From NCBI GenBank assembly GCA_024696355.1, contig JAILGV010000030.1, forward strand, positions 1 to 64,000: 64,000 bases of DNA. The letters are read 5' to 3'. The DNA is from Solobacterium sp. GTDB lineage: Bacteria > Bacillota_I > Bacilli_A > Erysipelotrichales > Erysipelotrichaceae. The notes under the pieces were generated by a model. The model made no database searches. It was given only the letters and a program-made list of their open reading frames with translations, and was not told the DNA's origin. Shown here piece by piece: positions 4,101 to 63,652 of this stretch; the stretch's first letter is position 1; the number at the start of each line of letters is the position of its first letter. A program made the position numbers and the translations under genes.

Positions 4101-4133
4101 AAAGAGGGCTGTTCCCCGGTCTGCGGGGATAAT

Positions 4134-4193
4134 AAAAAGGAGCCGCAGACTCCCGTTCCTGTCCGGATGCACCGGACAGTTTTTCTGCAGCTC
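4134..4193 (-). terminator. Terminator of the WYL-sirtuin operon
   Basis: On the minus strand an outer stem (AGGAGCTGCAGA with TCTGCGGCTCCT) encloses an inner CTGTCCGG/CCGGACAG hairpin and is followed by TTTTTATT. Confidence 0.7.
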
Positions 4194-4928: not shown

Positions 4929-4947
4929 ATCCGGTCTCACTTTCTTT

Positions 4948-5916: not shown

Positions 5917-5994
5917 ATTTTATTATATTGTACCACTTTTCGGACAGTATAAAAGGTTCCCCGTCCTAATATGAAAGAGGAAAGAGGTGGAACT

Positions 5995-6594: not shown

Positions 6595-7726
6595 CCCTCA
6601 GAACATGCGTACGCAGTACGGCATGTTTTCAGGCGTTGTGGGACTTGTCTGCAATCTTGTTCTGTTTGCCTTCAAGCTGACCGCCGGACTGCTGATGCAT
6701 TCCATTGCGGTTGTGTCTGATGCGTTCAATAATCTTTCCGACGGATGTTCCTGCATTATTACCCTGGCCGGATACAGACTGGCCGGAAAACCGGCTGACA
6801 GGAAACATCCTTTCGGACACGGAAGAATGGAATATCTGGTTTCTCTTTCGGTATCGCTGCTGATTGTTCTGTCCGGCTTTGAACTGCTGAGAAGCAGTTT
6901 TGAGCGTCTTTTTATTCGCAGTCAGATCATCTTCCAGCCGCTGCTGTTTGTTTTTCTTGTTCTTTCCGCAGCTGTCAAACTCTGGATGAGACATTTCTAC
7001 ACAACAGTGGGAAACAGAATCAGGTCTGATGCTCTTCTGGCATCGGCACAGGATGCGGGAAATGATGTGCTGGCAACTTCCATCGCAGTTGCGGCAATGC
7101 TGCTGAATGCGTATACCGCCAGTTTTCCGTTTGACGCTGCGGCGGGACTTTTTGTTTCCGGAATGATCATGCTCTCCGGCTTTCAGATCGGCAGGGAAAT
7201 CCTGGACCGGCTGCTGGGGACGCCGGCGGACCGCGGGCTGGCCGATCAGATCGGTCAGATGATTCTGAACCACAGGGAAATCAGGGGTATGCATGACCTG
7301 ATGATTCATGACTACGGTCCCGGGACACAGATCGCCAGCGCACATGTCGAGATCGATCAGAATATGCCGTTCTTCAACGCGCACAAAATCGCAGATGAGA
7401 TTGAAAACGAGATTTTTGAAAAAATGCATGTGGAAATCACTCTGCATATGGATCCGGTGGAAACGGATAATCCTTTAACCGCGCAGTATCAGGAAAAAGC
7501 CGCCGGAATCCTTTCCGGATTTGACAGGAATATCAGGATACAGGATTTTCATGCGGTTTACGGGGATGATTCCGTGAATCTGATGTTTGAAGCCGTTGTG
7601 CCGTACAACAGCCAGGCTGATACAGAAACCATGCGCAGTGCACTGCGCGATGCATTCAGGAATGAAAATGTCACTGTCAGTCCGGTATTCAAGCATTCAT
7701 ATACCGGTGAGGATGCCGGGTCATGA
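6545..7726 (+). CDS. Cation diffusion facilitator (CDF) family metal transporter
   Basis: A 393-residue inner-membrane metal/H+ antiporter. Six transmembrane helices span roughly residues 25-210. The metal-site aspartates lie in SDAFNNLSD (helix 2) and SAQDAGND (helix 5), with KPADRKHPFGHGR in the loop between helices 2 and 3. The cytoplasmic C-terminal domain (about 215-300) has the ferredoxin-like CDF fold (IRGMHDLMIHDYGPG, HVEIDQNMP), followed by a second, less typical 90-residue extension. The substrate cannot be assigned; Zn2+ or Mn2+ are likely. ATG 6545 follows gaaagga. The stop overlaps the next ATG by 4 bp, so this gene leads a three-gene operon. Confidence 0.9.
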   Translation: MTEWLLRRFAGTLRSSDPQNMRTQYGMFSGVVGLVCNLVLFAFKLTAGLLMHSIAVVSDAFNNLSDGCSCIITLAGYRLAGKPADRKHPFGHGRMEYLVSLSVSLLIVLSGFELLRSSFERLFIRSQIIFQPLLFVFLVLSAAVKLWMRHFYTTVGNRIRSDALLASAQDAGNDVLATSIAVAAMLLNAYTASFPFDAAAGLFVSGMIMLSGFQIGREILDRLLGTPADRGLADQIGQMILNHREIRGMHDLMIHDYGPGTQIASAHVEIDQNMPFFNAHKIADEIENEIFEKMHVEITLHMDPVETDNPLTAQYQEKAAGILSGFDRNIRIQDFHAVYGDDSVNLMFEAVVPYNSQADTETMRSALRDAFRNENVTVSPVFKHSYTGEDAGS

Positions 7727-9108
7727 AAAAAGCAGTGATCTGGCATCAGAATGATGTGCATGCCCGCTTTGAGCGGTTTGCAGGCGCTGCCTTTTATCTG
7801 AAGCAGCATGCCGATGCAGAAAAGGACCTGATCCTGGATGCCGGAGATTTTTCGGATACCATGGATGTTACGGTCTGCGGCACGAACGGTGCAGGTCCCA
7901 TGGAACTGCTGAAGCACTGCGGTTTTGATGCGGCAGTACCGGGAAACAACGAGTTCTTTATGGGACCGCAGGCTCTGGAGGCAATGGCCTGTGTGTTCGG
8001 GCATATGATCTGTGCCAATATAGAAAAGCTGAATCACGAAAAGATTGCGGGAATCCGCGCATATGAACTGATTGAAAAGAACGGTGTGCGCTTTCTGATC
8101 ATCGGTCTGACACCGTACTTCAACGGTCCGGCAGCGTCGGATTTTACGGATATGGCGGGGATCAGGACATATGAGCCTTTCGGTGAAATCAGCCGGATTC
8201 AGCAGGAATGTGCCGGAAAGTATGATCTGTGCATTCTTTTGTCGCACTGCGGAATCAGAACGGACAGGCAGATTGCGGAGCGGACAAAAGTTCACCTGAT
8301 TATCGGCGGACACAGCCATACCGAAATGGACGGTGCGGAATGCGCTGACGGGGTTTATATCCATCAGTGCGGCTGTTTCGGAAAGTTCCTGGGAAAGACG
8401 GAAATATTTCTGGATGATGATATGCACATTCAGGATGTGCGGGCATGCAGTATTGATGTCAGCGGTATGCCGGCTGACGGGGAAACCATGCGGATTTATC
8501 TTGAGCAGAAGGAAATCGCCGAAAAAGCCCTGTCCGCAGTACTGTTTGAAATTGATGAGGAACTGGACTATGATGCCTGCCGCGAATGCCGTGCGGCCAA
8601 TGCCGCGGCGGATGCACTGTACGACCTGTGCCGATGTGATATGGCTCTGATCAACAACGGTATTCTGGAGAAGGGAATCGGCAGACAGATTACAGAAAAG
8701 TCACTGATCGAAGCATCTCCCAGCGGACTGTATCCGACTTCGGTTTACTGGTACGGATCAAAGATCCGCTCCGCTCTGGAAGCTTCGCGTGAAACGGAAC
8801 GGATCAGAGGCAGCGGAAAGGGAAGCGGGTTCAGGGGAACACGGCTCGGAACACTTGCGGTCAGCCGGAATGTGCGTATCCTGAACGGCGGAAGGGAGAT
8901 ACTGGTTGACGGAATTCCTCTGGACGACTGCAGGCTGTATCACGTCATGACCAGCGATTATCTGCAGAGGGGAACAGGCTATGAAATGCTCGGACCTTCC
9001 GAAACAGAAACGGAATATTTCAGGGGCTATATCCGGGACCTTCTTGAGGCTGCACTGAAGGATCCGGAATTTGTGAAACAGACGGCAGTCAGGAGGATAT
9101 ACGAATGA
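7723..9108 (+). CDS. 5'-nucleotidase/UshA-family metallophosphoesterase, cytosolic
   Basis: A 461-residue protein of the bifunctional UshA type. The N-terminal metallophosphatase domain (1-245) carries the metal ligands HQNDVHARF, DAGDFSD, GNNEF (usually GNHE), LSHCG and GGHSHT. The C-terminal 5'-nucleotidase domain (about 260-450) contains LINNGIL in place of the usual substrate-binding N-x-G-G and a LYHVMTSDYL block. There is no signal peptide, unlike UshA or YfkN, so it should act in the cytoplasm. The GNHE-to-GNNE change in a catalytic motif is unusual. It overlaps the CDF gene by 4 bp and the EamA gene by 4 bp (ATGA), so the operon links metal transport to a metal-dependent phosphatase. 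Confidence 0.87.
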   Translation: MKKAVIWHQNDVHARFERFAGAAFYLKQHADAEKDLILDAGDFSDTMDVTVCGTNGAGPMELLKHCGFDAAVPGNNEFFMGPQALEAMACVFGHMICANIEKLNHEKIAGIRAYELIEKNGVRFLIIGLTPYFNGPAASDFTDMAGIRTYEPFGEISRIQQECAGKYDLCILLSHCGIRTDRQIAERTKVHLIIGGHSHTEMDGAECADGVYIHQCGCFGKFLGKTEIFLDDDMHIQDVRACSIDVSGMPADGETMRIYLEQKEIAEKALSAVLFEIDEELDYDACRECRAANAAADALYDLCRCDMALINNGILEKGIGRQITEKSLIEASPSGLYPTSVYWYGSKIRSALEASRETERIRGSGKGSGFRGTRLGTLAVSRNVRILNGGREILVDGIPLDDCRLYHVMTSDYLQRGTGYEMLGPSETETEYFRGYIRDLLEAALKDPEFVKQTAVRRIYE

Positions 9109-49074: not shown

Positions 49075-50151
49075 ATGGAAATGACATTACGCTGGTACGG
49101 CAGTCAGTACGACACAGTCACACTTGAACAGATCAGACAGATTCCCGGTGTGAAGGGTGTTATTACAACACTTTACTACAAGCAGCCCGGTGAACTCTGG
49201 ACACGTGAAGAAATCAGAGCATTAAAGGATGAAGTTGCGGCAGCGGGAATGCATATTGCCGGCATTGAAAGCGTTAATGTTTCCGACGCAATCAAGACCG
49301 GTTCCGAAGGCCGTGATCATGATATTGAAAACTACATTAAAACTCTGGAGAATCTCGGCAAAGAGGACATTCATCTTGTCTGCTATAATTTCATGCCGGT
49401 ATTCGACTGGACAAGAACCGAACTGGCAAGAAAGAGAGAAGACGGTTCTACAGTACTGGCCTACACACAGGCAGCTGTTGATTCACTGAATCCCGAAAAG
49501 ATGTTTGATTCCATCGCCGGTGACATGAACGGAACAGTTATGCCGGGCTGGGAGCCTGAGCGTATGGCGAGAGTCAAGGAGCTCTTTGAGACATATAAAG
49601 ATATCGACAACGAAAAGCTGTTTGAAAATCTTGTTTACTTCCTGAAGGCTATTATGCCTGTATGCAACGAATATGACATCAAAATGGCCATCCATCCGGA
49701 TGATCCGGCATGGTCCGTCTTCGGTCTGCCGAGAATTATCATCAACAAGGAAAACATTCTCCGTCTGATGAATGCTGTGGACGATGTTCACAACGGTGTT
49801 ACTTTCTGCTCCGGTTCCTACGGAACAAATCTCAACAATAATCTGCCTGAGATGATCCGCAGCCTGAAGGGAAGAATTCACTTTGCACATGTAAGAAATC
49901 TGAAGTTCAACAGCCCCGATGATTTCGAGGAGGCAGCACATCTGTCCTCTGACGGTACATTCGATATGTATGAAATCATCAAGGCACTCTATGACATCGG
50001 CTTCGACGGACCGATCAGACCCGACCACGGCCGCATGATCTGGGGTGAAGTGGCAATGCCGGGTTACGGTCTCTATGACCGTGCGCTCGGTGCAGCATAT
50101 ATCAACGGCTTATGGGAAGCTGTAGAAAAAGCATCCGAGAGAGGTATCTGA
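49075..50151 (+). CDS. uxuA: Mannonate dehydratase
   Basis: A 358-residue TIM-barrel enzyme that dehydrates D-mannonate to 2-keto-3-deoxy-D-gluconate (KDG) using Mn2+/Fe2+. It begins with the conserved EMTLRWYG and shows FCSGSYG, HFAHVRN and the RPDHGRMIWGE ligand motif. Length is normal. AAAGGAG precedes the start. It is followed after one base by the uxuB::eda fusion, so the operon covers reduction, dehydration and aldol cleavage of the glucuronate/fructuronate branch. A hexuronate isomerase (UxaC) and KDG kinase are not in the window. Confidence 0.95.
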   Translation: MEMTLRWYGSQYDTVTLEQIRQIPGVKGVITTLYYKQPGELWTREEIRALKDEVAAAGMHIAGIESVNVSDAIKTGSEGRDHDIENYIKTLENLGKEDIHLVCYNFMPVFDWTRTELARKREDGSTVLAYTQAAVDSLNPEKMFDSIAGDMNGTVMPGWEPERMARVKELFETYKDIDNEKLFENLVYFLKAIMPVCNEYDIKMAIHPDDPAWSVFGLPRIIINKENILRLMNAVDDVHNGVTFCSGSYGTNLNNNLPEMIRSLKGRIHFAHVRNLKFNSPDDFEEAAHLSSDGTFDMYEIIKALYDIGFDGPIRPDHGRMIWGEVAMPGYGLYDRALGAAYINGLWEAVEKASERGI

Positions 50152-50152
50152 A

Positions 50153-52408
50153 ATGAAACTTTCAAATGAAGGACTGAAAAACAGAGAAGAGTGGATTTCC
50201 AAAGGATATGCGCTTCCGGAATTTGACCGGGAGGAAATGGTCAGGGAAACACTTGCCCATCCGGTATGGGTTCACTTCGGCGCAGGCAATATCTTCCGTG
50301 CTTTCCAGGCTGCCGCAGCACAGAAACTTCTGAATGAAGGCATCATGAAATCCGGCATTATTGCGGTTGACGGGTTTGATTATGAAATTGTCGAAAAAGC
50401 ATACAGACCCAATGACAACCTGTCCGTTCTGGTCACTCTGAAGGCAAACGGAACAGTTGAGAAAAATGTTATCGGTTCTATCGGAGAATCATGCATGCTT
50501 GATTCCGAAAATGCCGCTGAATATGCTAGACTAAAAGAGATCTTCAGAAGTGACAGCCTTCAGTTATGCACATTCACAATCACGGAAAAAGGCTATGCAC
50601 TGACAGACGCTTCCGGAAAGGAACTGGCTTCTGTTACGGAAGATATCGAAAAGGGAGTTGAAAAGCCGATGAGCTACATCGGCAAGGTCACATCACTGCT
50701 TTATGCAAGATATCTGGCGGGTGAGAAACCGATCGCAATGGTTTCCACTGACAACTGCAGCCACAACGGCGACAAGCTGTTTGCGGCGGTAGATACCTTT
50801 GCAAAGCGCTGGGCTGAAAAGGGACATGTTGAAAAGGGATTTGCCGAGTATATCGAAAATCCCAAAAAGGTATCGTTCCCCTGGTCAATGATCGATAAGA
50901 TTACGCCGAGACCTGATCACTCCGTAGAGGAAATTCTGAAAAAGGACGGACTTCCTCTTGAACCGGTTATCACATCCAGAAAGAGCTATGTGGCTCCGTT
51001 CGTAAATGCGGAGGAAAGTGAATATCTTGTCATCGAGGACTGGTTCCCCAACGGAAGACCGGCCCTGGAAAAAGCAGGATTCTACTTCACTGACAGAGAG
51101 ACTGTAGACAAAGTCGAAAGAATGAAAGTCTGCACATGTCTGAATCCGCTTCATACAGCACTGGCTGTATTCGGATGTCTGCTTGGCTACAGCAAGATTT
51201 CCGATGAAATGAAGGATGAAAATCTTGTATCCCTGGTCAAGACAATCGGCTACAAAGAAGGTCTGCCTGTCGTTGTCAATCCTGGCATTCTGGATCCGAA
51301 ACAGTTTATTGACACTGTTGTCAATGTACGTATTCCGAATCCGTTTATGCCGGATACACCGCAGAGAATTGCCACAGATACTTCCCAGAAGCTGTCAATC
51401 CGTTACGGAGAGACGATCAAGGCATATCTCGCTGATGACAGCCTTGATGTCAGAGATCTGAAAAAGATACCGCTGGTATTCGCAGGATGGCTCAGATACC
51501 TGATGGGAGTGGACGATGAGGGCAATGCGTTTGAGCTGAGCCCGGATCCGCTGCTGGAAGATGTAAAAGCCTATGTCAGTGATTTCAGGTGCGGCGAGGT
51601 TCCTTCTGAAGAAACAGTAAAAGCAAAACTGCTTCCTCTGCTCAAAAACGCCAAAATATTCGGCGTTGATCTTGAAGAGGCTGGCATGAGCGGCGCTGTG
51701 ATCAGGCATTTCATGGAAATGCTGAAAGGAAAAGGAGCGGTAAGAAACGTGTTAAAAGAAAATACCAAATCAGAGAGCATTATTGATCAGCTCGGCAAAA
51801 TCGGAATTGTACCGGTTGTTGTAATCAATGACGTAAAAGACGCTGTACCTCTTGCAAAGGCGCTCGTTGAGGGCGGACTTCCCTGTGCAGAAGTAACATT
51901 CAGAACTGAAGCTGCCGAAGAAGCAATCAGACAGATGGTTGCGGCATATCCTGAAATGCTCGTCGGTGCAGGAACAGTCCTGACAAAAGAGCAGGCTGAC
52001 CGTGCAATCGCTGCAGGTTCAAAATTCATCGTATCCCCCGGCCTGAATCCTGAAGTTGTTGAGTATGTTCTTTCCAAGGGCGTACCTATGACACCGGGCA
52101 CATGCACACCGAGCGATATTGAAAAAGCACTCTCACTCGGTCTGACAGAAGTGAAATTCTTCCCGGCAGAGCCTTCCGGAGGTCTGAAGATGATCAAGGC
52201 TCTGGCAGCACCGTATGTTAATGTCAGATTTATGCCTACAGGCGGAATCGGCCCGGGCAACGTCAGAGAATATCTGGCATACAACAAGATCTTTGCCTGC
52301 GGCGGAAGCTGGATGGTAAAGGGCGATCTGATCAAAGAAGGAAAATTTGACGAGATCAAGGCACTTGTTAAAGAAGCAGCTGACATCGTAAAGGAAGTCA
52401 GAGGCTGA
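50153..52408 (+). CDS. Fusion: fructuronate reductase (UxuB) plus KDPG aldolase (Eda)
   Basis: A 751-residue protein. Residues 1-530 are a mannitol dehydrogenase-family D-fructuronate reductase: WVHFGAGNIFRAFQAA binds NAD, FPWSMIDKITPRP and the LHTALAVFGCLLGY helix follow, and the C terminus ends in a GAVR motif. Residues 533-751 are a class I KDPG/KHG aldolase: GIVPVVVINDV, EVTFRT, GAGTV, the Schiff-base lysine near 667 in EVKFFPAE, and PTGGIGPGNV. The first and last steps around mannonate dehydratase are thus joined in one polypeptide. In frame at the joint lies GTG 51749, where a free aldolase would start, with AAAGGAG 11 bases upstream; separate translation of the aldolase is possible. 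Confidence 0.9.
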   Translation: MKLSNEGLKNREEWISKGYALPEFDREEMVRETLAHPVWVHFGAGNIFRAFQAAAAQKLLNEGIMKSGIIAVDGFDYEIVEKAYRPNDNLSVLVTLKANGTVEKNVIGSIGESCMLDSENAAEYARLKEIFRSDSLQLCTFTITEKGYALTDASGKELASVTEDIEKGVEKPMSYIGKVTSLLYARYLAGEKPIAMVSTDNCSHNGDKLFAAVDTFAKRWAEKGHVEKGFAEYIENPKKVSFPWSMIDKITPRPDHSVEEILKKDGLPLEPVITSRKSYVAPFVNAEESEYLVIEDWFPNGRPALEKAGFYFTDRETVDKVERMKVCTCLNPLHTALAVFGCLLGYSKISDEMKDENLVSLVKTIGYKEGLPVVVNPGILDPKQFIDTVVNVRIPNPFMPDTPQRIATDTSQKLSIRYGETIKAYLADDSLDVRDLKKIPLVFAGWLRYLMGVDDEGNAFELSPDPLLEDVKAYVSDFRCGEVPSEETVKAKLLPLLKNAKIFGVDLEEAGMSGAVIRHFMEMLKGKGAVRNVLKENTKSESIIDQLGKIGIVPVVVINDVKDAVPLAKALVEGGLPCAEVTFRTEAAEEAIRQMVAAYPEMLVGAGTVLTKEQADRAIAAGSKFIVSPGLNPEVVEYVLSKGVPMTPGTCTPSDIEKALSLGLTEVKFFPAEPSGGLKMIKALAAPYVNVRFMPTGGIGPGNVREYLAYNKIFACGGSWMVKGDLIKEGKFDEIKALVKEAADIVKEVRG

Positions 52409-52556: not shown

Positions 52557-55367
52557 ATGATTGCTAAAGAAGTCAACCCGAATATTCATGTAAATGAATG
52601 GGATTTTCCGCGCGAAGATTATCACTGCAGCGATCCGGAAAAGAAAAAACTAGTTAAACAGCTGGCTGTTATGATAACCGACAGCATTCCCCGGAAGCTT
52701 CCCGGGGGAATGAAAGAAAATCACATGGATTTCTGGATTCTGGACAGACTTCTGACCAAGGATGAAGTCCGCTTCATGCTGAGCTTTAAGAAAAGAAGAA
52801 CCGGTCTTACAACAAGGGAACTCGCTGAACGCAACCGCATGACGGAAGAGCAGACGCAGACGGTCATCGATCATCTGCTGTGGATCGGTCTGCTGGAACA
52901 GAACCGCGATAATGAAGATCATCATATCCAGTACCTTATTCCGAAGTGGGTGGTCGGATCAGGTGAATATATGGTGGAGCATCCGACACTTGCCGATATG
53001 CATCCGGAAGTGGCTACCATGTTCAATTTGGCACCGCAGGAACCGCTGGAAATAGCGGCTCCGCTGATTCCTCCCGGAGGGGCGGGAATCGGAATGCATG
53101 TAATTCCGGTGGAAAAGGCAATTGAAGCGGAATCGCAGTCGGTCAGTGTAGAGCATCTTTCACACTGGCTGAACAAATATGACACTTTCTGCGCTATGGT
53201 CTGCGCCTGCCGGAAAGCACAGCGTTACAGAGGTGAAGGCGTAGGCGACATCGAGGGATACATGTGCATCGGTGTCGGCGATATTGCGGAATTCCTGGTA
53301 ACATCCGGAAAGGATGCACATTATATCAGCAGGGAAGAGGCAATGGATATTATCATCCGTGCGGAACGCAAGGGCTACGTGCACCAGATTACCAATCTGG
53401 ACGGACCCAACCGCATTGTCGGCATCTGCAACTGCTCGCCGGGAAGCTGCTACGGTCTGAGAACCTCACAGCTGTTCAATACCCCGAACATGTCAAGAAG
53501 TGCATACCGTGCCCATGTTGATCATGCAAAGTGCACTGCCTGCGGAAAATGCGTTGAGGTATGTCCAGCAGGTGCGGCAAAACTGGGACAGAAGCTCTGC
53601 CGTAAAAACGGCACAAAAGTAACATACCCGATGCATGAGCTGCCTGATGAGACGGAATGGGGCGAAGACAAGTGGGACAGAGATTACCGTGACCATAACA
53701 GGATCAACTGCTATGACACCGGTACCGCTCCCTGCAAAACAGCATGTCCGGCACACCTGGCCGTTCAGGGATATGTCAGAATGGCGGCGGAAGGAAGATA
53801 CCGTGATGCGCTCAGGCTGATCAGACAGGACAATCCTTTCCCTGCGGTATGCGGAGCAGTATGCAACCGCCGCTGTGAGGACAGATGCACCAGAGGAATG
53901 ATCGATGAGCCTGTCGCCATTGATGAGATCAAGAAATTCCTTGCTTACAGGGAGCTTAATGAAGCAGATCAGTATATTCCGGTATGTGAAAACGGAGACG
54001 GTGAACAGTGGAAGGATTATCCCGTTGCCGTAATCGGTGCCGGTCCCGCAGGGCTTACGGCAGCTTATTATCTGCGGACGGAAGGCTATCCGGTAACTGT
54101 ATTTGAGAAGGAAAGCAGGCCGGGAGGCATGCTTGTCAACGGAATTCCCGACTTCAGGCTGGACAAGAAGGTTGTCGACGCCGAAATCAGCATTATCAGA
54201 AAGATGGGTGCGGAAATCATATGCGGCACAGAAGTCGGAAAGGATATTACTCTTGATGAGCTCCGTGCCAGAGGCTTCAAGGCATTCTATATTGCTATCG
54301 GACTTCAGGGCGGCAGAAAGGCCGGAGTTCCGGGTGAGGACGCTGCGGGCACCGGAAGCGGCATTGCCTTCCTGAAGCGCGTAAATCAGGATCATTCCGT
54401 ACGTCTGAGCGGTGATACTGTTGTAATCGGCGGCGGAAACGTCGCGGCGGATGTTGCGCGTACTGCAGTCCGTGCTTCCCAAGGCAGGGTAACCATGGTC
54501 TGCCTTGAGCAGAGACGGCAGATGCCGGCGGCGAAGGATGAGGTAAGAGAAGTCCTTGAAGAAGGCATCGAAATTCTGAACGGCTGGGGTCCGAAGGAGA
54601 TTATTGCCGAAAACGGAAAGACAGCCGGTGTCATATTTAAGAAATGCACGTCTGTATTTGATGAAGAAGGCAGATTTGCGCCGGAATACAATGAAGAGGA
54701 AACAATCACTGTCAGATGCGAAAATGTGCTTCTGGCAATCGGCCAGAGCGCTGAATGGGGCGGCCTGCTTAACGGCACAAAGGTTGAACTGAAAGCAAAC
54801 GGAACCGCAGCTGCGGATCCTGTGACGCTGCAGACAGCAGAACCGGACATCTTTATCGGCGGGGATATCTTCCGCGGACCGCGCTTTGCGATTGATGCAA
54901 TCGCTGACGGAAGGGAAGGCATGGTTTCCATCAACCGGTATGTGCATCCGGGGCAGTCACTGACAATCGGAAGGGATCTCAGGCAGTTTATTGAACTTGA
55001 CCGTGATGATATTTCCGTTTACGGCTATGATACCGCCGGACGTCAGGCTCCGGGAATGAGGGAAGGCGAGCCGCTCGGGAGCTTTGAGGACTTCAGGCTG
55101 CCGCTGACTGAGGAGCAGGTCAGAACAGAAGCGGCAAGATGTCTGAGCTGCGGCGCAACAACTGTAGATCTGAACAAATGCATCGGATGCGGACTGTGCA
55201 CGACAAGATGTGAATTTGATGCAATTCACCTGAGCAGGGATATTCCGCATGCCAGTGACATGCATACTGCAGAGGAAATGATGAAGGTTGTGGCACCTTA
55301 TGCGGCAAAGCGTGCAGTTAAAATTGCTCTGAAGAAAAGAAAATCAAATAAAGCCGCAAATGCATAA
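52557..55367 (+). CDS. 936-residue multi-domain iron-sulfur flavoprotein (HTH-like, ferredoxin, GltD-like)
   Basis: A modular oxidoreductase. Residues about 1-120 contain a winged-helix-like segment (TTRELAERNRMTEEQTQTVI). Residues 170-310 are a cysteine domain with CACRKAQR and ICNCSPGSCYG. A ferredoxin module starts at C325 (CTACGKCVEVCP). Residues about 375-800 are GltD-like: C-rich entry CKTACPAHLAVQGYV, FAD motif AVIGAGPAGLTAAY (about 489), second dinucleotide motif VVIGGGNVAADVA (about 621) and IGQSAEW. A terminal ferredoxin has CIGCGLCTTRC (about 874). It probably moves electrons between NAD(P)H and ferredoxin or an unknown substrate. It lies between uxu and ula genes but has its own promoter and terminator. 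No glutamate synthase large subunit is nearby. Confidence 0.8.
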   Translation: MIAKEVNPNIHVNEWDFPREDYHCSDPEKKKLVKQLAVMITDSIPRKLPGGMKENHMDFWILDRLLTKDEVRFMLSFKKRRTGLTTRELAERNRMTEEQTQTVIDHLLWIGLLEQNRDNEDHHIQYLIPKWVVGSGEYMVEHPTLADMHPEVATMFNLAPQEPLEIAAPLIPPGGAGIGMHVIPVEKAIEAESQSVSVEHLSHWLNKYDTFCAMVCACRKAQRYRGEGVGDIEGYMCIGVGDIAEFLVTSGKDAHYISREEAMDIIIRAERKGYVHQITNLDGPNRIVGICNCSPGSCYGLRTSQLFNTPNMSRSAYRAHVDHAKCTACGKCVEVCPAGAAKLGQKLCRKNGTKVTYPMHELPDETEWGEDKWDRDYRDHNRINCYDTGTAPCKTACPAHLAVQGYVRMAAEGRYRDALRLIRQDNPFPAVCGAVCNRRCEDRCTRGMIDEPVAIDEIKKFLAYRELNEADQYIPVCENGDGEQWKDYPVAVIGAGPAGLTAAYYLRTEGYPVTVFEKESRPGGMLVNGIPDFRLDKKVVDAEISIIRKMGAEIICGTEVGKDITLDELRARGFKAFYIAIGLQGGRKAGVPGEDAAGTGSGIAFLKRVNQDHSVRLSGDTVVIGGGNVAADVARTAVRASQGRVTMVCLEQRRQMPAAKDEVREVLEEGIEILNGWGPKEIIAENGKTAGVIFKKCTSVFDEEGRFAPEYNEEETITVRCENVLLAIGQSAEWGGLLNGTKVELKANGTAAADPVTLQTAEPDIFIGGDIFRGPRFAIDAIADGREGMVSINRYVHPGQSLTIGRDLRQFIELDRDDISVYGYDTAGRQAPGMREGEPLGSFEDFRLPLTEEQVRTEAARCLSCGATTVDLNKCIGCGLCTTRCEFDAIHLSRDIPHASDMHTAEEMMKVVAPYAAKRAVKIALKKRKSNKAANA

Positions 55368-55432: not shown

Positions 55433-55457
55433 AATATCCTCCCGGGGGGAGGATATT
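55433..55457. terminator. Hairpin between the convergent flavoprotein and ulaF genes
   Basis: AATATCCTCCC, ggg loop, GGGAGGATATT. T-rich sequence follows on both sides, so it probably ends the ula minus-strand operon. Confidence 0.65.
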
Positions 55458-55478: not shown

Positions 55479-56177
55479 TCAGTTTCCCTGACCGTAGTAT
55501 GCATTCGCACCGTGCTTGCGGTAATAATGCTTGTCCTGCAGTTCCTGCGGGGCTTCTTTTACCTTCGGCTCAATCAGTTCCGTACGAAGAGCCATCTTGG
55601 CAACTTCTTCCAGAACAACCGCACAGTGCACTGCGTCTTCTGCATTCTTTCCCCAGCAGAAAGGACCGTGGTTCTTGCAGAGCGCTGCCGATACTGCTTC
55701 GTAGTCGATGCCCATGCGGCCGAACTCATTGACGATCAGATGGCCTGTGTTCTCTTCGTAAGCCTCATCAATTTCTTCCTTCGTCAGGCAGCGCAGGCAG
55801 GGAACATCACCGTAGAAATAGTCGGCATGTGTTGTGCCGTAGCAGGGGATGCTGCGGCCGGCCTGGGCCCAGCTTGTTGCATAAGGGGAGTGCGTGTGAA
55901 CAACGCCGCCGATGTTGGGGAATGCTTTGTAAAGCTCGACGTGTGTTGCAGTATCGCTTGACGGATTCAGTTTTCCTTCGACAACGTTTCCGTTCAGATC
56001 GACAACAACCATATCCTCCGGTGTGAGCTTGTCGTAGTCGACGCCGCTCGGTTTGATAACAAACAGACCTTTTTCACGGTCGATTCCGGAAACATTGCCC
56101 CATGTGAATGTTACAAGTCCGTATTTCGGAAGCAGCATATTTGCTTCATAAACTTCTTTTTTTAATTCTTCAAGCAT
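55479..56177 (-). CDS. ulaF: L-ribulose-5-phosphate 4-epimerase
   Basis: A 232-residue class II aldolase-fold epimerase of the AraD/UlaF/SgaE group. It has the TWGNVSGID phosphate site, [14 protein letters not shown], the zinc histidines in VVHTHSPYA (H94, H96) and a later KNHGPF histidine. It forms D-xylulose-5-phosphate, the entry point to the pentose phosphate pathway. The context with ulaE and ulaG supports UlaF over AraD. ATG 56177 follows GAGGAG; the in-frame ATG 56192 overlaps the ulaE stop and the ribosome site. Confidence 0.92.
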
Positions 56178-56188
56178 ATTTATTCTCC

Positions 56189-57046
56189 TCATTCACACTG
56201 CGCAGCAGCTTCTTCAATTTTGGCACGCAGGAATTTCGCTGAATCACAGATTGTTTTTTCGTAGTCCTGACCTTTCTGGTGCCAGAACTCACCGGTAAAC
56301 ATACGGACGCCCATTTCAAGGGAAGCCTTGATGCATCTGACATATTCGGTATGTCCTGTGGGATCGCCGAAATTCATATCTCTGTACAGACCGGGCTTTG
56401 TTTCCTTGAGATGCACTGCGAAGATATGACCGCTTCCGCGCTTCATGTCTTCCACGACATCGGTTCCGTAGATCAGTGATGCATTTTTCAGATTTCCGAT
56501 ATCCGGATAAACACCCAGCCACGGGGAATCAATCAGATCGACATAATGCATGGACTTTGTGACAGTGTCCATGAACGGAGTTTCCATTGTCTCAAAGGCA
56601 AGCACAACGCCGTATTCTGCAGCAATCTCGGCAGATTTAGCCAGATTCTCGCGGAACCAGCGCTCGGTATCAGCGTCGCCGTCTTCGTAATATACATCAT
56701 AGCCGGCAAGCTGGATGATGCGGATTCCCGTATTTGCCGAGAATACAATGGCCTTTTTCATCATTTCCAGTGCTCTTTCCCGTGTTTTTTCATCATGGGA
56801 GCCGAGCGGCCATTTGCGGTGTCCGGACAGGCACATTGTCAGAAGGGGAGTGCCCATCGTACGTGAAAGCTGACCAAGCTCACGCTGTTTTTCCTCGCTC
56901 CAGTCCAGGCGTTCCTGACGCCAGTCTGTTTCATCGATACTGATCTCCAGGCGGTCAAATCCGCTGGTGCGGGCAATATCGAACATTCTGGCAAAATCAT
57001 ATCCGGCAGGAATGGCCTTTTCATAAAGCCCAAGTGAATATTTCAT
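56189..57046 (-). CDS. ulaE: L-ribulose-5-phosphate 3-epimerase (UlaE type)
   Basis: A 285-residue TIM-barrel epimerase (UlaE/SgaU). It starts [13 protein letters not shown] and contains [48 protein letters not shown], the metal glutamate in [19 protein letters not shown] and HLKETKPG. These motifs are specific for the L-xylulose-5-phosphate 3-epimerase group. It lies between ulaF (12 bp downstream) and the propeller gene (25 bp upstream), clearly one transcript. Confidence 0.94.
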
Positions 57047-57071: not shown

Positions 57072-58118
57072 TTACTTTGTCAGAGTATATACTGCAATTT
57101 CGTCGGTTTCACGGTTGGCTGCAATGAGCTTGTCCTGATCTCCGTCACGGAAATACATGCAGTTTGCAGGTCCTGCGCCGGCATCAAGAACATCAAATAC
57201 ATAGCCGCCGTCATAATGAATCGCAAGAAGCTCACGGTCTTCCTGACGGTTTCCGATAAATGCATATTCCGTTCCGTCAAGATTTGCGCCCCAGACTGCG
57301 TGCAGGAACGGCATCTTCTTCTCTGCTTCGAATACCTTTTCGAAACTGCCGTTCTTTTCTTTATAGACAGCAAGTGTGTCGCCGTGGAAAGGTGAAAGAA
57401 CGAGGAGTTCCTTTTTTCCGTCGCCGTCATAGTCCTGATACAGCATGTCGCTCGTCGGAACGTCAAGAATCTTCTCGGCGGACCATTCACCGTCGGCGGA
57501 TGCGGGAGCATCTACGCGGTAAACACCGTTCTCCGTGCCGACCAGAACAAATTCATCATCACCGTCAGCCACTTTTGCAAAGCCGTGGTTTTTGTACAGG
57601 CCGCTGACCAGCGGTGTCAGTTCAAGCTGATGCTCGCTGCTGTATGCACGGATGTCTTCGGGAAGCTTTCCGACCCAGATGCGTCCGGGACATGTCCAGT
57701 CATTCTTGAAGGCATGGGCACTCTTGAGCGTGCAGGCAACGATGTAGTATTCGCCGGCTTTTCTGATGACGCCGAAACGGTGGACAAACGGCAGGTCGCA
57801 CAGTACGTGCATGATCCATTTTCCGTTTTCACGTGTATAGTACACAATCTTTGCTTCAGCTGAATTATTCGGACTGTAGAACTTGTATGTCGCCATAAGA
57901 ATCGGATCATCATCAGCTGAAAGGGGATACTGGGCAAGAGTCATGACACCGCCCGGACCTTCCCAGAGGGTATCCGTACGTGTTCCGTCAAGGTCAAATA
58001 CATATGCAGGATCTTCTTTTTCTGCAGCACAGATCAGATGACGTTTTCCGTCAAATTTCATTTCAGCTACTGCGTAGCATTTGTTCAGATTTGCAATAAC
58101 CTTTTTTTCTGCTTTCAT
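57072..58118 (-). CDS. Cytosolic beta-propeller-like protein of unknown function in the ula operon
   Basis: A 348-residue protein without signal peptide or membrane helix. It is built of repeated beta-rich units with recurring short strands (HLICAAEKED, EYYIVACTLKS, DEFVLVGTENGVYRV, KELLVLSPFHGDTLAVY, EYAFIGNRQEDRELLAI, DKLIAANRETDEIAVYTL). One unit has DYDGDGKKELLV, like the calcium loop of FG-GAP/VCBS repeats. About six or seven blades are likely. GAAGGAGAT precedes the ATG. It sits where ulaD would be expected, between ulaG and ulaE. A lactonase, epimerase or sugar-binding role are all possible; I do not assign one. Confidence 0.72.
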   Translation of the reverse strand: MKAEKKVIANLNKCYAVAEMKFDGKRHLICAAEKEDPAYVFDLDGTRTDTLWEGPGGVMTLAQYPLSADDDPILMATYKFYSPNNSAEAKIVYYTRENGKWIMHVLCDLPFVHRFGVIRKAGEYYIVACTLKSAHAFKNDWTCPGRIWVGKLPEDIRAYSSEHQLELTPLVSGLYKNHGFAKVADGDDEFVLVGTENGVYRVDAPASADGEWSAEKILDVPTSDMLYQDYDGDGKKELLVLSPFHGDTLAVYKEKNGSFEKVFEAEKKMPFLHAVWGANLDGTEYAFIGNRQEDRELLAIHYDGGYVFDVLDAGAGPANCMYFRDGDQDKLIAANRETDEIAVYTLTK

Positions 58119-58187: not shown

Positions 58188-59291
58188 TCAGAGTACTGAA
58201 CGGAACGGTACGTTCGGCTCTTCCTCGAAGCAGTCGTGGAAACCACGGTCGTGATGATATGCCATACGGTCCTTGTCATCCGGATATACATAATGTCCGC
58301 CGACTTCCCAGAAGAACGGATGGAACTTGTAGTCCAGACGGTCCTTGCGCATTTCCCAGAGAACCTTGATTTCATTCACGTCAGCCTGGAAGTTCGTCCA
58401 GACGTCATGGTGGATAGGAATTACAACCTTGCAGTTGAGGGCTTCAGCCATACGGAGTACATCTGTAGCTTCCATCTTGTCCTGGATGCCGACCGGATTA
58501 AGTCCGTAAGCTGCTGTAGCAACATCAATGTCATAATCTTTGCCGTGCTTTGCAAAGTAAATAGAGTAGTGTGAGTCACCGCTGTGATAGATGTTTCCGC
58601 CGGGAGTCTTAATGATGTAGTTAACGGCTTTTTCATCCATGTCAGTAGGGCACTTGCCGTACAGATCTTCACGGTCCGGTCCTGTTGAATCAGTTGTGAC
58701 GATGCATGTTCTGTCAAATGAATCAACTGCAACAATTTCAATATCCTTGATCTTGATGGAATCGCCCGGCTTTACAACGATGCAGCGGTCTTCGGGAACG
58801 CCCCAGTTGACCCAGTAGTCGACGCACTTGCGCGGTCCGATGAACGGTACAGGGATTTCCTTTCCGTTTTCATCAAATGTTGTCATTCCGCTGTTTACGA
58901 CATGAGCTGCCAGTTCAGCGCTCATATGATCCTGATGATAATGAGTTGCAAGTACTGCATCGAGATGCTTGACCATAAACGGATCAATTACAAACGGTAC
59001 ATTGCGGAGATTCGGCTGCATTGCACGGGCACCGGCCATGTTTGCCATCTGGTGTCCGACCTTCATCTTGCCGTCGCCGTGTGTGCGCTTACCGTTTCCT
59101 GCCCACAGGTCAACCGTGATGTTCGCGCCGCCCGGTGTCTTGAACCACATGCCGACGCATCCGAGCCACCACATTGCGACTGTTCCGGGCTTTACATCCC
59201 AATTTTCAATCTCTTCGCTGAGCCAGGTTCCCCATTCCGGGAATGTGCTCATAACCCACTTTTCACGGGTCATCTCACTGATTTTACTCAT
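58188..59291 (-). CDS. ulaG: L-ascorbate-6-phosphate lactonase
   Basis: A 367-residue metallo-beta-lactamase-fold lactonase that opens L-ascorbate-6-phosphate to 3-keto-L-gulonate-6-phosphate. It has [12 protein letters not shown] (H117, H119, D121, H122), [18 protein letters not shown] near the start, [11 protein letters not shown] and [10 protein letters not shown]. Length and motifs match UlaG closely. ATG 59291 follows GGAGG; an upstream in-frame codon at 59324 lacks a ribosome site. It is the first gene of the minus-strand operon ulaG-propeller-ulaE-ulaF, divergent from the PTS genes. Confidence 0.95.
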
Positions 59292-59345
59292 ATTTTCCTC
59301 CATTCCGCTATCTGAGCAAATCATGTCCGCAGATGTCTTATTAAT

Positions 59346-59524
59346 ATAATAAAAGACAAGATACGAACTGCTTCAAGTTCAGTTTAGCGGTCTTAAACAA
59401 CGAAGGTCAATATCAAGCGAACATTAAATGTGCACCTTTCGCCCAAAATTGTTCGTTTTATTGAAAATGTTTCAGTAAAACGTGAAAGAAATGTGCGTAT
59501 TTTCTGCGAAACATAAATAAAACG
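59346..59524. promoter_or_regulatory. Divergent ula control region with inverted and direct repeats
   Basis: The 314-bp gap between ulaG and ulaC holds no gene. It contains CGTTTTATTG (59454-59463) and CAGTAAAACG (59473-59482), an inverted repeat with one mismatch. A further TAAAACG lies at 59518-59524, 42 bp from the one at 59476. There are direct AAATGTGC copies at 59426 and 59489 (63 bp apart) and a palindrome ACATTAAATGT at 59421-59431. The 42- and 63-bp spacings equal four and six helical turns. They are candidate sites for the DeoR-family protein encoded downstream and for looping; the binding protein is inferred. Confidence 0.55.
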
Positions 59525-59556
59525 ATCTTTTACAAGCTTTTTTCCGTCTTTTTCGA

Positions 59557-59584
59557 TTGATTTCCGATCATAAACTACTAAAAT
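59557..59584 (+). promoter_or_regulatory. Promoter of the ulaCAB operon
   Basis: TTGATT (59557-59562), 16-bp spacer, TAAAAT (59579-59584). GAGAGGAAGGG is the ribosome site before ATG 59606. Confidence 0.6.
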
Positions 59585-59605
59585 GTTTATTGAGAGGAAG
59601 GGTTT

Positions 59606-60091
59606 ATGGCTAGTGTATTACAGAATATTGTCGAGAAGAAGCATTACCGCTTCATCGACGGCGAAGGTGTTTCCTGGCAGGAAGCAGTAAGACTTTCGGC
59701 AGAATCGCTCGTAGCTGACGGCAGTGTCAGCGAAGACTATTACAAACAGATCGTTGCATGCATCGAAAAGTTTGGACCTTATGTGGTCTTCGAACACAAC
59801 ATTGCTATGCCGCATACGACCGAAAATGCGACAGGCGCCTTCAAAACAGGCATCGGTTTCATGGTTTCAAAGCATATGATTGATTTCGGAGTGGACGAAT
59901 TCGGAGACAAAAAAGAGGCGAATCTGTTCTTCACGCTTTCCGCAGTCAATCCTGAGGAACACATGAACAACATTCAACAGCTTTCATTTATCTTTATGAA
60001 TGAGCCTCTGATCGATGCTCTTGCCCAGGCAAGAACACCGGAGGACATTCTCGCAGCGGAAGCAAAATTCCCCTGTGAAGAAATGGAATGA
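59606..60091 (+). CDS. ulaC: PTS EIIA component, ascorbate type
   Basis: A 161-residue EIIA of the mannitol/fructose-like superfamily used by ascorbate PTS. The phosphorylated histidine is H70 in NIAMPHTTE, with HMIDFGVDEFGDKKEANLFF and NIQQLSFIF as family strands. It accepts phosphate from HPr and passes it to UlaB. It is first in the plus-strand operon; ulaA follows after 42 bp with AAAGGAGG. Confidence 0.92.
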   Translation: MASVLQNIVEKKHYRFIDGEGVSWQEAVRLSAESLVADGSVSEDYYKQIVACIEKFGPYVVFEHNIAMPHTTENATGAFKTGIGFMVSKHMIDFGVDEFGDKKEANLFFTLSAVNPEEHMNNIQQLSFIFMNEPLIDALAQARTPEDILAAEAKFPCEEME

Positions 60092-60133: not shown

Positions 60134-61633
60134 ATGGGCGTTTTAAGTGCTATTTGGAGTTTCTTTGCAACATATGTACTGCAGAAGGCTCCGTACATGG
60201 TCGGATTCCTGACCCTTCTCGGTTACTGCCTGATGGGCAAAAAGTGGTATGACACTCTGGCAGGAACCCTTAAAGCTATCATCGGTATGCTGATTCTGAA
60301 CGTTGGTTCAGGCGGACTTACCAGCAACTTCCGTCCGATTCTTGCCGGTCTGAAGGACCGCTTCAATCTGACAGCAGCTGTTATCGACCCGTACTATGGT
60401 CAGAACGCTGTTACAGCAGGTGTTGAAGAAGTATTCGGAAAAGGATTTGCAAACGTTATGACGCTGCTTCTCATTGCGTTCATCGTTAACATTCTTCTCG
60501 TTCGCTTCAACAAGATCACAAAGTGCCGCACACTGTTCACAACCGGTCACGTACAGGTTCAGCAGGCTGCTACAGCTTACTGGCTGATCCTCTTCGCTCT
60601 GCCGGCTCTGAGAAACAATGACGTTGCTCTTATGATCGTTATGTCCGTTATCCTTGGTGCTTACTGGGCAGTCGGCTCCAACCTCACAGTCAAGCCTATG
60701 CAGGAACTGACTGAAGGTGCAGGCTTCGCTATTGCTCACCAGCAGATGTTCGGTATCCGTCTGGGTTCCTGGCTCGCTGAAAAGCTCTTCGGTGACAAGG
60801 ACGGAACACGTGAAGTCAAGAAAGTCGGCGAACTTGAAATGCCGGGCTTCTTCTCAATCTTCAACGAGAACATGGTATGTACTGCCATCCTCATGACTGT
60901 ATTCTTCGGAATCATCATGGCAGTTATCGGCAAGCCGTTCTTTGTAGCAAGCGGTGCTACAAAGGAAACTGAGAACTTCCTGTTCTATATCTTCAATACA
61001 TCACTGCAGTTCGCTGTTTATCTGGCTATCCTGCAGCTCGGTGTACGTACATTCGTCACAGAACTCACAGCTTCATTCCAGGGTATTGCCGACAAGCTTC
61101 TGCCGGCTTCAGTTCCTGGTGTTGACTGTGCAGTCTGCTATGGTTTCGGTGATTCAAACGCTGTTACATTCGGCTTCCTTGCCGGTCTTACAGGTCAGAT
61201 CATTGCAATTATCACACTGATCCTTATCAAGTCCCCGACAATCATCATCTGCGGTTTCGTACCTGTATTCTTCGATAACGCTACAATCGGACTTGTTGCG
61301 AATGAAAAGGGCGGTCTCAAAGCCTGCCTCGTTATTCCGTTCCTGTCCGGTCTGATCCAGGTATTCGGCGCAGCTCTGATTTCCGGTTGGGTCGGACTTG
61401 CTCAGTACGGCGGATATCTTGGAATGTTTGACTGGGATACTGTATGGCCGCTGTTCACGGTTGTCATGCACTTCCTCGGCTATGTAGGTGTTGCACTCGT
61501 TGTTATTGCTCTGCTTGCAATCCCGCAGATCGAATACCGCATGGATCCGGAAGGCTACTTCCTGATTACTGAGGATTACGACGCATACGTCGAACACAAA
61601 AAGAACCTCAAGGCAAAGAAAGCCAAGGCTTGA
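60134..61633 (+). CDS. ulaA: PTS EIIC ascorbate permease
   Basis: A 499-residue polytopic protein with about ten or eleven membrane helices, the permease of an SgaT/UlaA-type PTS. Conserved segments include LKAIIGMLILNVGSGGL, FTTGHVQVQQAATAYW, FFVASGATKETENFLFY and the VYGFGDSNAVTFGFLAGL-like loop (here CYGFGDSNAV). It imports L-ascorbate and phosphorylates it with UlaB. The C terminus is a lysine-rich cytoplasmic tail. Most similar to ascorbate systems; other PTS of this family may take other sugar acids. Confidence 0.94.
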   Translation: MGVLSAIWSFFATYVLQKAPYMVGFLTLLGYCLMGKKWYDTLAGTLKAIIGMLILNVGSGGLTSNFRPILAGLKDRFNLTAAVIDPYYGQNAVTAGVEEVFGKGFANVMTLLLIAFIVNILLVRFNKITKCRTLFTTGHVQVQQAATAYWLILFALPALRNNDVALMIVMSVILGAYWAVGSNLTVKPMQELTEGAGFAIAHQQMFGIRLGSWLAEKLFGDKDGTREVKKVGELEMPGFFSIFNENMVCTAILMTVFFGIIMAVIGKPFFVASGATKETENFLFYIFNTSLQFAVYLAILQLGVRTFVTELTASFQGIADKLLPASVPGVDCAVCYGFGDSNAVTFGFLAGLTGQIIAIITLILIKSPTIIICGFVPVFFDNATIGLVANEKGGLKACLVIPFLSGLIQVFGAALISGWVGLAQYGGYLGMFDWDTVWPLFTVVMHFLGYVGVALVVIALLAIPQIEYRMDPEGYFLITEDYDAYVEHKKNLKAKKAKA

Positions 61634-61683: not shown

Positions 61684-61989
61684 ATGGCAAAACTTGATGG
61701 AAAAAGGCTTCTTGCATGCTGTGCAAACGGTGCCGGTTCTTCACTGATGATGGAGAACGCAATCAAAAAGGTTCTGAAAAAGTACAATATCAAACCGTCT
61801 GAACTGCGTCACTGCGCAGTATCCGAAGGTAAGAGTGCTGCACGCAACTACGATTTAGTATTCTGTGCACGTACTTTTGTCAAAAACTTCGAAGGTGTCG
61901 GTGCCAACACAATCGTAATTCCCTTAAAGAACGTTATGTCCGATAAGGAAATTGAAGCCGCCCTCAAAGAAGCAGATCTTCTTGACTGA
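61684..61989 (+). CDS. ulaB: PTS EIIB component, ascorbate type
   Basis: A 101-residue EIIB. The phosphocysteine lies in LLACCANGAGSSLMM (C12/C13; the second cysteine, followed by ANGAGSS, fits the P-loop). The protein has the small alpha/beta fold typical of the lactose/ascorbate EIIB group. AGGAGG precedes the start. It completes the three-component PTS in the order A-C-B. Confidence 0.93.
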   Translation: MAKLDGKRLLACCANGAGSSLMMENAIKKVLKKYNIKPSELRHCAVSEGKSAARNYDLVFCARTFVKNFEGVGANTIVIPLKNVMSDKEIEAALKEADLLD

Positions 61990-62113: not shown

Positions 62114-62803
62114 ATGAAAATGATCAGAACGATAGTATTTGACATTGACGGTACGCTTTACGATTATGACTCTGCGGACCTGGCAGCATCCGGGGCAGTG
62201 GCAGATTATGCCGTGCAGAACCTCGGCATGACTGACGCTGAATTCCGCAGTGCATTAAAAGAAGCCTCGGGACAGCTGACCGCAGCTGTCGGCAAAACTG
62301 CGGCTTCACACAATCGGCTGATCCGGTATGCATTTATCCTGGAAAGTGCTTCACTCCCGCTGACCCATGCGATCAGAATGGAAGAACTGTACTGGGATAC
62401 GCTGCTGGAACATGCAGTAGTGTTTGAAGGCACAAAAGAAGCGCTTGAGCACTTAAAGCAGCAGGGATACAAACTCGGGATCGGATCAAATATGACAGCA
62501 TATATACAGTACCGCAAACTTGAAAAGTTCGGTCTGCTGGGATTGTTTGATTTTATCGTAACCAGCGAAGAAACCGGGTGTGAAAAACCTGATCCGGCTT
62601 TGTTCCTCAGATGTGCCGAACTTGCCGGCTGCAGTCCCGCAGAATGCATGTACGTAGGAGACAGCCTGAAGAATGATGCGGAAGGTGCCGCTTCAGCTGG
62701 TATGACAGCAGTGCTTTTCGATGCAAAACGCACATATAAGCGAACAAATGATGGTATAATAATCATAAATTGTATGACTGAACTATATGATTTGGTCAAT
62801 TAA
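62114..62803 (+). CDS. HAD-superfamily hydrolase (subfamily IA, YjjG-like)
   Basis: A 229-residue phosphatase with motif I VFDIDGTLYDYDS (nucleophile and general acid aspartates), a helical cap (about 18-95), motif II IGSNMT, motif III lysine EKPDP and motif IV YVGDSLKNDAEGA. Length and cap resemble YjjG/phosphoglycolate-phosphatase types. It follows the PTS operon immediately after the terminator and precedes the DeoR regulator. A sugar-phosphate substrate related to the ula pathway is possible but not shown. Start ATG 62114 or 62120; no strong ribosome site. Confidence 0.88.
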   Translation: MKMIRTIVFDIDGTLYDYDSADLAASGAVADYAVQNLGMTDAEFRSALKEASGQLTAAVGKTAASHNRLIRYAFILESASLPLTHAIRMEELYWDTLLEHAVVFEGTKEALEHLKQQGYKLGIGSNMTAYIQYRKLEKFGLLGLFDFIVTSEETGCEKPDPALFLRCAELAGCSPAECMYVGDSLKNDAEGAASAGMTAVLFDAKRTYKRTNDGIIIINCMTELYDLVN

Positions 62804-62845: not shown

Positions 62846-63652
62846 ATGAGAACGGCGCAGAAGGATCTTATCGCAAGACATCAGGAAATACTCAGCCAGC
62901 TTCGCGAACAGGGTGAATTGAGGTCTGAGAATTTTGCTGCGGCCCACGGAATCAGCATGATGACTGTCCGGCGCGATCTGCAGCTGCTTGAAGATAAAGG
63001 TCTTTTAAGACGGACACACGGCGGTGCAGTTGCTGTTGAATCTGCATCCGGTGATAAACCGTTCACATATTCCGAGGATGTTATGGCATGCCGGAACGCA
63101 ATCTCCAGATTTGCGGCATCATTTGTGGAAGAGGGTGACAGGCTGTTCATCAACGGCAGCCGGACGGCACTCAATATCCTGAAATATGTAAGGAACAAAA
63201 ACATTTCTGTATATACAAACAACGGCTGGGCAATCGGCGAAATCTATGATCCGGGAGTTTCCGTGCGGATCGTCGGCGGTGACCTGCACGACAAAATTAT
63301 GGTTGGAGAATTTACGATGCGCAATCTTCTTAATATGCGCGCCGAGAAAACATTCATAGGATGCTATGCAGTCTATGATGACGGTGTATTCTCCTACAGT
63401 ATTCCTACCGAGATCGGCATCAATGAAGCCATGATCGGAAGAACAACAGATCACCTTTATATACTCGCTGATCATTCGAAAATCAGATCTCATGAGGAAA
63501 AGGACGATTCCTACGGAAGCTGCACATATGACAGAAAGATAACGCTTATCACTGACAGCAGGGCGAATCCGGAGAGTCTGAATCATCTGAGAAGCCGCGG
63601 AATCGAGGTTCTCGTAGTTCCGGCGGATGACAGTGCTGAAGGTGCGGTTTAA
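62846..63652 (+). CDS. DeoR/GlpR-family repressor, likely of the ula genes
   Basis: A 268-residue regulator with an N-terminal winged helix (about 10-60; SENFAAAHGISMMTVRRDLQLLEDKGLLRRTHGGAV, the canonical DeoR motif) and a sugar-phosphate-binding DeoRC domain (about 80-240; LFINGSRTALNILKYV, YTNNGWAIGE, ILADHSK). In E. coli the homologous UlaR senses ascorbate-6-phosphate. Position next to the PTS supports the same role here. GGGAG precedes ATG 62846. Confidence 0.9.
   Translation: MRTAQKDLIARHQEILSQLREQGELRSENFAAAHGISMMTVRRDLQLLEDKGLLRRTHGGAVAVESASGDKPFTYSEDVMACRNAISRFAASFVEEGDRLFINGSRTALNILKYVRNKNISVYTNNGWAIGEIYDPGVSVRIVGGDLHDKIMVGEFTMRNLLNMRAEKTFIGCYAVYDDGVFSYSIPTEIGINEAMIGRTTDHLYILADHSKIRSHEEKDDSYGSCTYDRKITLITDSRANPESLNHLRSRGIEVLVVPADDSAEGAV

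Follow-up and report, generated by a model that had tools for sequence, protein, structure and literature searches.

The propeller gene and its neighbors in the ascorbate locus

The window described here is the whole 64,000-nucleotide stretch of Solobacterium sp. DNA that was analyzed (GCA_024696355.1, contig JAILGV010000030.1). It carries an ascorbate (ula) locus in which an open reading frame of 348 codons (57072-58118) is found on the minus strand in the order ulaG-X-ulaE-ulaF, divergent from genes for a PTS and a regulator. The features of the locus are:

55433..55457, no strand assigned: symmetric hairpin with an 11-pair stem just past ulaF, likely operon terminator (consensus match only)
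55479..56192 (start may be 56177), minus strand: UlaF, L-ribulose-5-phosphate 4-epimerase (NF006047, 395 bits, cut-off 257; aligned with E. coli UlaF)
56189..57046, minus strand: UlaE, L-xylulose-5-phosphate 3-epimerase of the L-ribulose-5-phosphate 3-epimerase family (TIGR00542, 282 bits, cut-off 272)
57072..58118, minus strand: beta-propeller protein, 348 aa (ORF with ATG start; AlphaFold2 pLDDT 95.7; conserved in ula operons)
58188..59324, minus strand: UlaG, L-ascorbate-6-phosphate lactonase (NF008688, 613 bits, cut-off 306)
59325..59605, no strand assigned: divergent intergenic region, candidate shared operator (promoter-like sites on both strands; 13-bp inverted repeat at 59454-59482)
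59606..60091, plus strand: PTS EIIA, ascorbate type, UlaC-like (PF00359; best NCBIfam model ascorbate IIA, under its cut-off)
60134..61633, plus strand: PTS EIIC, ascorbate type, UlaA-like (PF03611, 345 bits; ascorbate IIC model, 371 of 380 bits)
61684..61989, plus strand: PTS EIIB, ascorbate type, UlaB-like (PF02302; best models ascorbate IIB/IIBC)
62114..62803, plus strand: HAD-family phosphatase, likely cotranscribed with the PTS genes (PF00702, PF13419)
62846..63652, plus strand: DeoR-family regulator in an UlaR-like position (PF08220 and PF00455)

The first-pass annotation of this DNA had placed a propeller gene inside an ascorbate operon, and both the reading frame and its flanking genes are borne out: UlaG, UlaE and UlaF all exceed curated cut-offs, as expected of a ula operon. 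UlaG retains the HxHxDH metal motif, and homology suggests that it starts at 59291. UlaE can be aligned with E. coli UlaE over its length; this alignment and its passing of the epimerase cut-off led us to reject the idea that it is a non-epimerase with swapped roles. Two of the three intergenic distances given earlier, 69 and 25 bp, are correct, and the third, 11 bp, holds only for the second Met start of UlaF, the first ATG giving a 4-bp overlap of the UlaF and UlaE genes instead. The divergent EIIA, EIIC, EIIB and DeoR genes described earlier are real and lie on the plus strand. Membership of EIIC in the EIIC-GAT family is certain, and its nearest models are of ascorbate type, with a score just under the equivalog cut-off. 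The inverted repeat at 59454-59482 (CGTTTTATTGAAA / TTTCAGTAAAACG) between the divergent operons is a candidate DeoR operator; the promoter-like sites of this region (59325..59605) are consensus matches only, and their number is near chance.

Other genes of the window merit mention in their own right. A UxuA-like gene at 49075-50151, a mannonate dehydratase by eye, directly precedes a gene for a 751-aa fusion protein (50153-52408, plus strand), in which a mannitol-dehydrogenase-family domain resembling fructuronate reductase is joined to a KDPG/KHG aldolase domain, so that two steps of hexuronate breakdown are apparently combined in one protein. Just after the fusion gene lies one for a 936-aa protein (52557-55367, plus strand), which by eye shows 4Fe-4S cysteine motifs, an FAD-dependent oxidoreductase of the glutamate-synthase small-subunit type and an additional N-terminal part.

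Conservation of the propeller in ula operons

NCBIfam and Pfam scans returned neither an NCBIfam name nor a curated family name for the propeller protein, its score against PF13517 (FG-GAP), 24.9 bits, falling just under the cut-off of 26.9. In the host family, 41 of 146 genomes contain UlaG, 42 the propeller and 39 both (Fisher p 1.9e-29, uncorrected for shared ancestry), and most of the few departures from this pattern involve fragments or contig ends. The usual operon order is UlaG-IIA-IIC-IIB-propeller-UlaF-UlaE; in 39 loci of the family, the propeller is followed directly by UlaF in 34 cases and preceded directly by a PTS gene in 27.

An alignment-based scan of the collection yielded 80 named propeller loci, from Erysipelotrichaceae, Anaerostipes, Blautia, Megamonas, Pectinatus, Propionispira, Trichococcus, Clostridium, segmented filamentous bacteria, Treponema, Anaerolineae and Bipolaricaulota, with outliers in Spirochaetota, Verrucomicrobiota, Planctomycetota and Bacteroidota. 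UlaG, UlaE or UlaF lies near the propeller in 67 of the 79 loci counted, a sample that is non-random because these loci were retrieved via the propeller; the family survey and the class survey described below are free of that bias. A broad propeller search of 296 Bacteroidota genomes gave a single match. The propeller cluster is kept in dozens of genomes and is therefore not a chance arrangement, and absence of the gene from all related ula operons, which the first-pass annotation had named as an argument against an essential pathway role, did not occur.

Two of these operons contain further genes that hint at their substrates. In Blautia (L074, 3219-5600), a GH31 glycosidase gene within the ula operon hints at ascorbate glycosides, and in Megamonas (L079, 2553-9974), corrinoid-protein, RACo and URO-D-like genes hint at methylated ascorbate.

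Absence of UlaD

A whole-genome search for UlaD and OMP-decarboxylase homologues, as proposed at the outset, found none of the former in the host assembly (G000; draft, 83% complete, 192 contigs). The sole member of the UlaD superfamily there is PyrF, on another contig, and the possibility of a UlaD gene elsewhere in this draft was rejected. Several near-complete relatives also lack UlaD. Eight genomes with a propeller operon (G031, G076, G041, G037, G081, G047, G623 and G628) contain no member of the OMP-decarboxylase family, five others (G126, G017, G073, G006 and G071) contain one each, with a PyrF-level score, and no protein passed the UlaD cut-off in any of 40 further named propeller genomes. 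The assembly of G031 consists of one contig, is 99% complete and has a propeller operon with the UlaD superfamily absent. In its seven-gene operon the propeller is the only gene without an assigned step, and decarboxylation is the only step without a gene.

These genomes bear on the alternative that the propeller catalyzes some other step on the open-chain keto acid, as a tautomerase, isomerase, hydratase or epimerase, with decarboxylation proceeding spontaneously or by an unrecognized enzyme encoded elsewhere. Beta-keto acids can lose CO2 slowly unaided, and the nearest solved fold, that of aldos-2-ulose dehydratase, belongs to an enzyme that acts on keto sugars as both a lyase and an isomerase. 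However, such a role would leave the decarboxylation gap open in the genomes devoid of any UlaD-family member. Because the substrates of the intact UlaE and UlaF are pentulose phosphates, CO2 must be lost before either enzyme acts. The propeller, moreover, occupies the exact position of UlaD and is usually missing where UlaD is present. We regard this alternative as unlikely, and favor the reading that the propeller itself replaces UlaD.

Alternation of UlaD and the propeller

The exchange of the two genes is evident in related operons. In G130, of the host family, the arrangement is DeoR|UlaG-IIA-IIC-IIB-UlaD-UlaE-UlaF, and in G031 it is DeoR|UlaG-IIA-IIC-IIB-propeller-UlaF-UlaE; the G130 UlaD, which exceeds the NF009832 cut-off, thus occupies the slot held by the propeller in relatives. 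A class-wide survey of 267 genomes found UlaG in 18, with the propeller present in 13 of them and absent from 5. UlaD was found in all five UlaG genomes without a propeller, as had been predicted beforehand, and within 0.5 kb of UlaG in four (Fisher p 7e-4, one unlinked UlaD-like gene being counted against the alternation). An unlinked UlaD-like gene occurs in G025.

On a tree of 69 UlaG rows, UlaD and propeller operons are intermingled and the UlaD label changes at least four times on well-supported branches; replacement therefore seems, from these sequences, to have taken place more than once. One row (L197) spans only half its locus and was recoded in the later swap test. Only three independent swaps could be paired, all in the expected direction, a number too small for significance.

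UlaD and the propeller are not strictly exclusive. The propeller and a UlaD-like gene occur together in about eight named loci, including those of Holdemania and Solobacterium-like genomes, and these constitute the main evidence against simple replacement. Most such loci combine a PTS-propeller-UlaF-UlaE unit with a separate, divergent UlaG-UlaE'-UlaD-like unit, and the UlaD-like proteins that were scored reach 187-237 bits, under the 250-bit UlaD cut-off. These genes may be relics, belong to a parallel branch or serve a different substrate. A ulaD gene elsewhere in the same regulon was the other finding that the first-pass annotation had put forward as counting against an essential role; only a minority of related loci have one, in diverged form. 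In six loci (L128, L130, L116, L144, L115 and L051), a class II aldolase-like gene and a PTS-propeller-UlaF-UlaE operon lie opposite a divergent UlaG-UlaE'-UlaD' unit, giving two ascorbate-like branches side by side, in which the UlaD' proteins that were scored fall under the curated cut-off.

Loci with both units would fit an operon devoted to a different lactone or sugar acid phosphate, in which the propeller is that pathway's own enzyme and the two units are parallel branches; the window EIIC and EIIA, which score under the ascorbate equivalog cut-offs, are also consistent with this. Yet UlaG lies far above the ascorbate-6-phosphate lactonase cut-off (613 vs. 306 bits), related operons differ essentially by the presence of UlaD or the propeller, and UlaG proteins from the two kinds of operon interleave on one tree. 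A different substrate is accordingly improbable in our estimation, slightly more so than a different step on the same keto acid, and replacement of UlaD within ascorbate breakdown is the reading carried forward below.

Fold and invariant residues

The term propeller was originally a guess by eye. AlphaFold2 prediction with 50 homologues now indicates an all-beta propeller with high confidence (pLDDT 95.7), confirming the guess and completing the structure prediction that had been recommended. The nearest solved fold by VIA-align 2 is that of aldos-2-ulose dehydratase (Z 35.4, rmsd 2.7, 335 residues), separated by a clear margin from the next structural family (Z 28.9). At the sequence level the relationship is faint: PF22301, the propeller domain of that enzyme, matched 5 of the 50 members weakly (best E 7.9e-4) and the window protein not at all, a phmmer search of PDB sequences gave nothing meaningful, and a profile search of the same sequences recovered the shared DxDxDG loop only. 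Neither the window propeller nor any of 50 relatives matches PF00215 or NF009832, and the predicted fold is likewise not a TIM barrel; by sequence and by fold, the protein falls outside the UlaD family.

Eight charged or histidine residues, E33, H113, R114, D140, H178, H245, H273 and R291, are invariant in 50 of 50 sequences from several phyla. That the invariant polar residues share one face of the propeller is inferred from its secondary structure, in which 11 of the 15 polar positions that are nearly invariant map to the D-A and B-C loops of that face (p 4e-4), the assignment being taken from the DSSP string of the predicted structure with blade boundaries chosen by the analyst. Three of the other four lie in the region of the DxDxDG metal-binding loop (D229, D231, D233, G234 and E237), which is itself invariant or nearly so in the 50 sequences.

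Lectins and binding scaffolds are numerous among FG-GAP/VCBS propellers (PMC8023676), and the window protein carries the calcium-binding DxDxDG motif of that group, raising the prospect that it serves the ascorbate regulon without catalysis, as a sugar-binding sensor, a scaffold or a lectin-like protein. We consider this very improbable. The eight invariant residues, which secondary structure places on one face, form the pattern of an active site; the propeller trades places with an enzyme gene instead of supplementing it; and in one distant locus (L147) it is fused to a dehydrogenase. An enzymatic function is thus preferred.

A second genomic setting

Outside the Firmicutes, propeller homologues are found within sugar-acid gene sets that have no UlaG. 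Two Bacteroidales share the gene order RpiB-DhaK-DhaL-GntP-propeller-HIBADH:

L188 (G464), 3668-9046: RpiB-DhaK-DhaL-GntP-propeller-beta-hydroxyacid dehydrogenase operon
L147, 6529-11905: the same operon

The propeller is fused in frame to the dehydrogenase in L147, and the two are separate genes in L188. A related set, HIBADH-RpiB-DhaL-propeller, occurs in one Spirochaetales genome (L143), DhaK/DhaL adjoin the propeller in L150, and HIBADH adjoins it in L149 and L139. The dehydrogenases of this setting belong to the beta-hydroxyacid family, which produces oxo acids, and score also as tartronate semialdehyde reductase. A beta-keto acid formed in this way would need a decarboxylase to provide a substrate for DhaK/DhaL, presumably a triulose or tetrulose, and the propeller is again the only gene without an assigned role. 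The Bacteroidales operon looks like an undescribed sugar-acid pathway. The neighbors in three distant loci (L145, L146 and L151) do not make up a clear beta-keto-acid pathway.

FGGY sugar kinases adjoin the propeller in L035 and L199, pairs that parallel the adjacency of LyxK and SgbH in E. coli. Two further candidate fusions were considered: a 663-aa ORF in L139 was rejected, its extension being antisense to a dehydrogenase, and the long open frame in G623 has no recognized fused domain to support it.

Proposed function

Genome context suggests that the propeller is a decarboxylase that replaces UlaD in the ascorbate operon, a reading to which we assign a probability of about 0.65. The original proposal that the propeller takes the place of UlaD in a variant operon is strongly supported by the UlaD searches, the recurrence of the cluster and the alternation in the same slot; the several vague roles offered with it (processing of a lactone, binding of a sugar acid, marking of a variant pathway) can be narrowed to an enzyme replacing the decarboxylation step. 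PTS import would convert ascorbate to ascorbate-6-phosphate, UlaG would open its lactone, the propeller would remove CO2 from the resulting beta-keto acid to yield L-xylulose-5-phosphate, and UlaE followed by UlaF would convert this product to D-xylulose-5-phosphate.

Direct evidence covers the gene and its operon, their recurrence, the lack of UlaD, the exchange of the two genes in one slot, the fold and the invariant polar residues; the chemistry, including the metal and what each residue does, is our inference. A metal ion in the central funnel, held by the invariant histidines and acids, could stabilize the enediolate that arises upon departure of CO2, and the invariant arginines could hold the carboxylate or phosphate. 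UlaD with Mg2+ also relies on a metal-stabilized enediolate, and by analogy the propeller and UlaD may have arrived at the same chemical solution on different scaffolds. We know of no propeller-fold decarboxylase.

A broader proposal, which we hold at roughly even odds, is that these proteins constitute a new class of metal-dependent beta-keto sugar-acid decarboxylases built on a beta-propeller, swapped with the TIM-barrel UlaD more than once in the vitamin C operons of anaerobes and serving a second sugar-acid pathway in other phyla. That pathway would comprise GntP import, the beta-hydroxyacid dehydrogenase, the propeller decarboxylase, the DhaK/DhaL kinase and an RpiB-type isomerase.

The ulaABCDEF genes are the usual basis for predicting vitamin C breakdown in anaerobic gut bacteria. 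By that standard, a genome with the propeller variant seems to miss an essential step and would be scored as unable to break down the vitamin. If the proposal is true, gut Firmicutes include a whole clade with a different decarboxylase, an uncharacterized family without a curated name gains a precise and cheaply testable function, and a textbook step can be carried out in a second, unrelated way, by a fold that to our knowledge has no decarboxylase among its members; the second setting points beyond this to a sugar-acid pathway as yet undescribed.

Comparison with known systems

The propeller corresponds to UlaD in its operon slot and would correspond to it in the one pathway step that is missing from the operon. 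The two differ in architecture, UlaD being a TIM barrel (PF00215) and the propeller an all-beta protein with no PF00215 match.

The propeller domain of aldos-2-ulose dehydratase (AUDH; PF22301; PDB 4a7k, 4a7y and 4a7z) is the best structural match and shares the same fold. According to the PDB titles, this enzyme has an active-site metal and binds ascopyrone M, and it acts on keto sugars. In contrast to the protein described here, AUDH is a fungal, multidomain protein of about 900 aa with only 12-13% identity to the propeller, and it is a dehydratase/isomerase of unphosphorylated sugars rather than a decarboxylase. VCBS and FG-GAP propellers (PF13517, PF01839) have the DxDxDG loop and the blade type in common with the window protein, which differs in having only one recognizable blade motif and conserved residues of catalytic appearance, and in being a bacterial, single-domain protein with no evident signal peptide.

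A search of chiefly open-access literature found no account of a propeller in ascorbate catabolism or of a replacement of UlaD. A 2011 survey of UlaG operons reported the ulaABCDEF unit "in all cases" (PMC3219644), and the propeller variant is therefore not described there. The ulaABCDEF-G regulon of E. coli and Gram-positive bacteria (PMC3219644) shares UlaG, the PTS, UlaE, UlaF and a DeoR regulator with the propeller operon and differs from it in that UlaD is replaced; the propeller operon is a variant of the known ula system, with an enzyme that is probably new and non-homologous.
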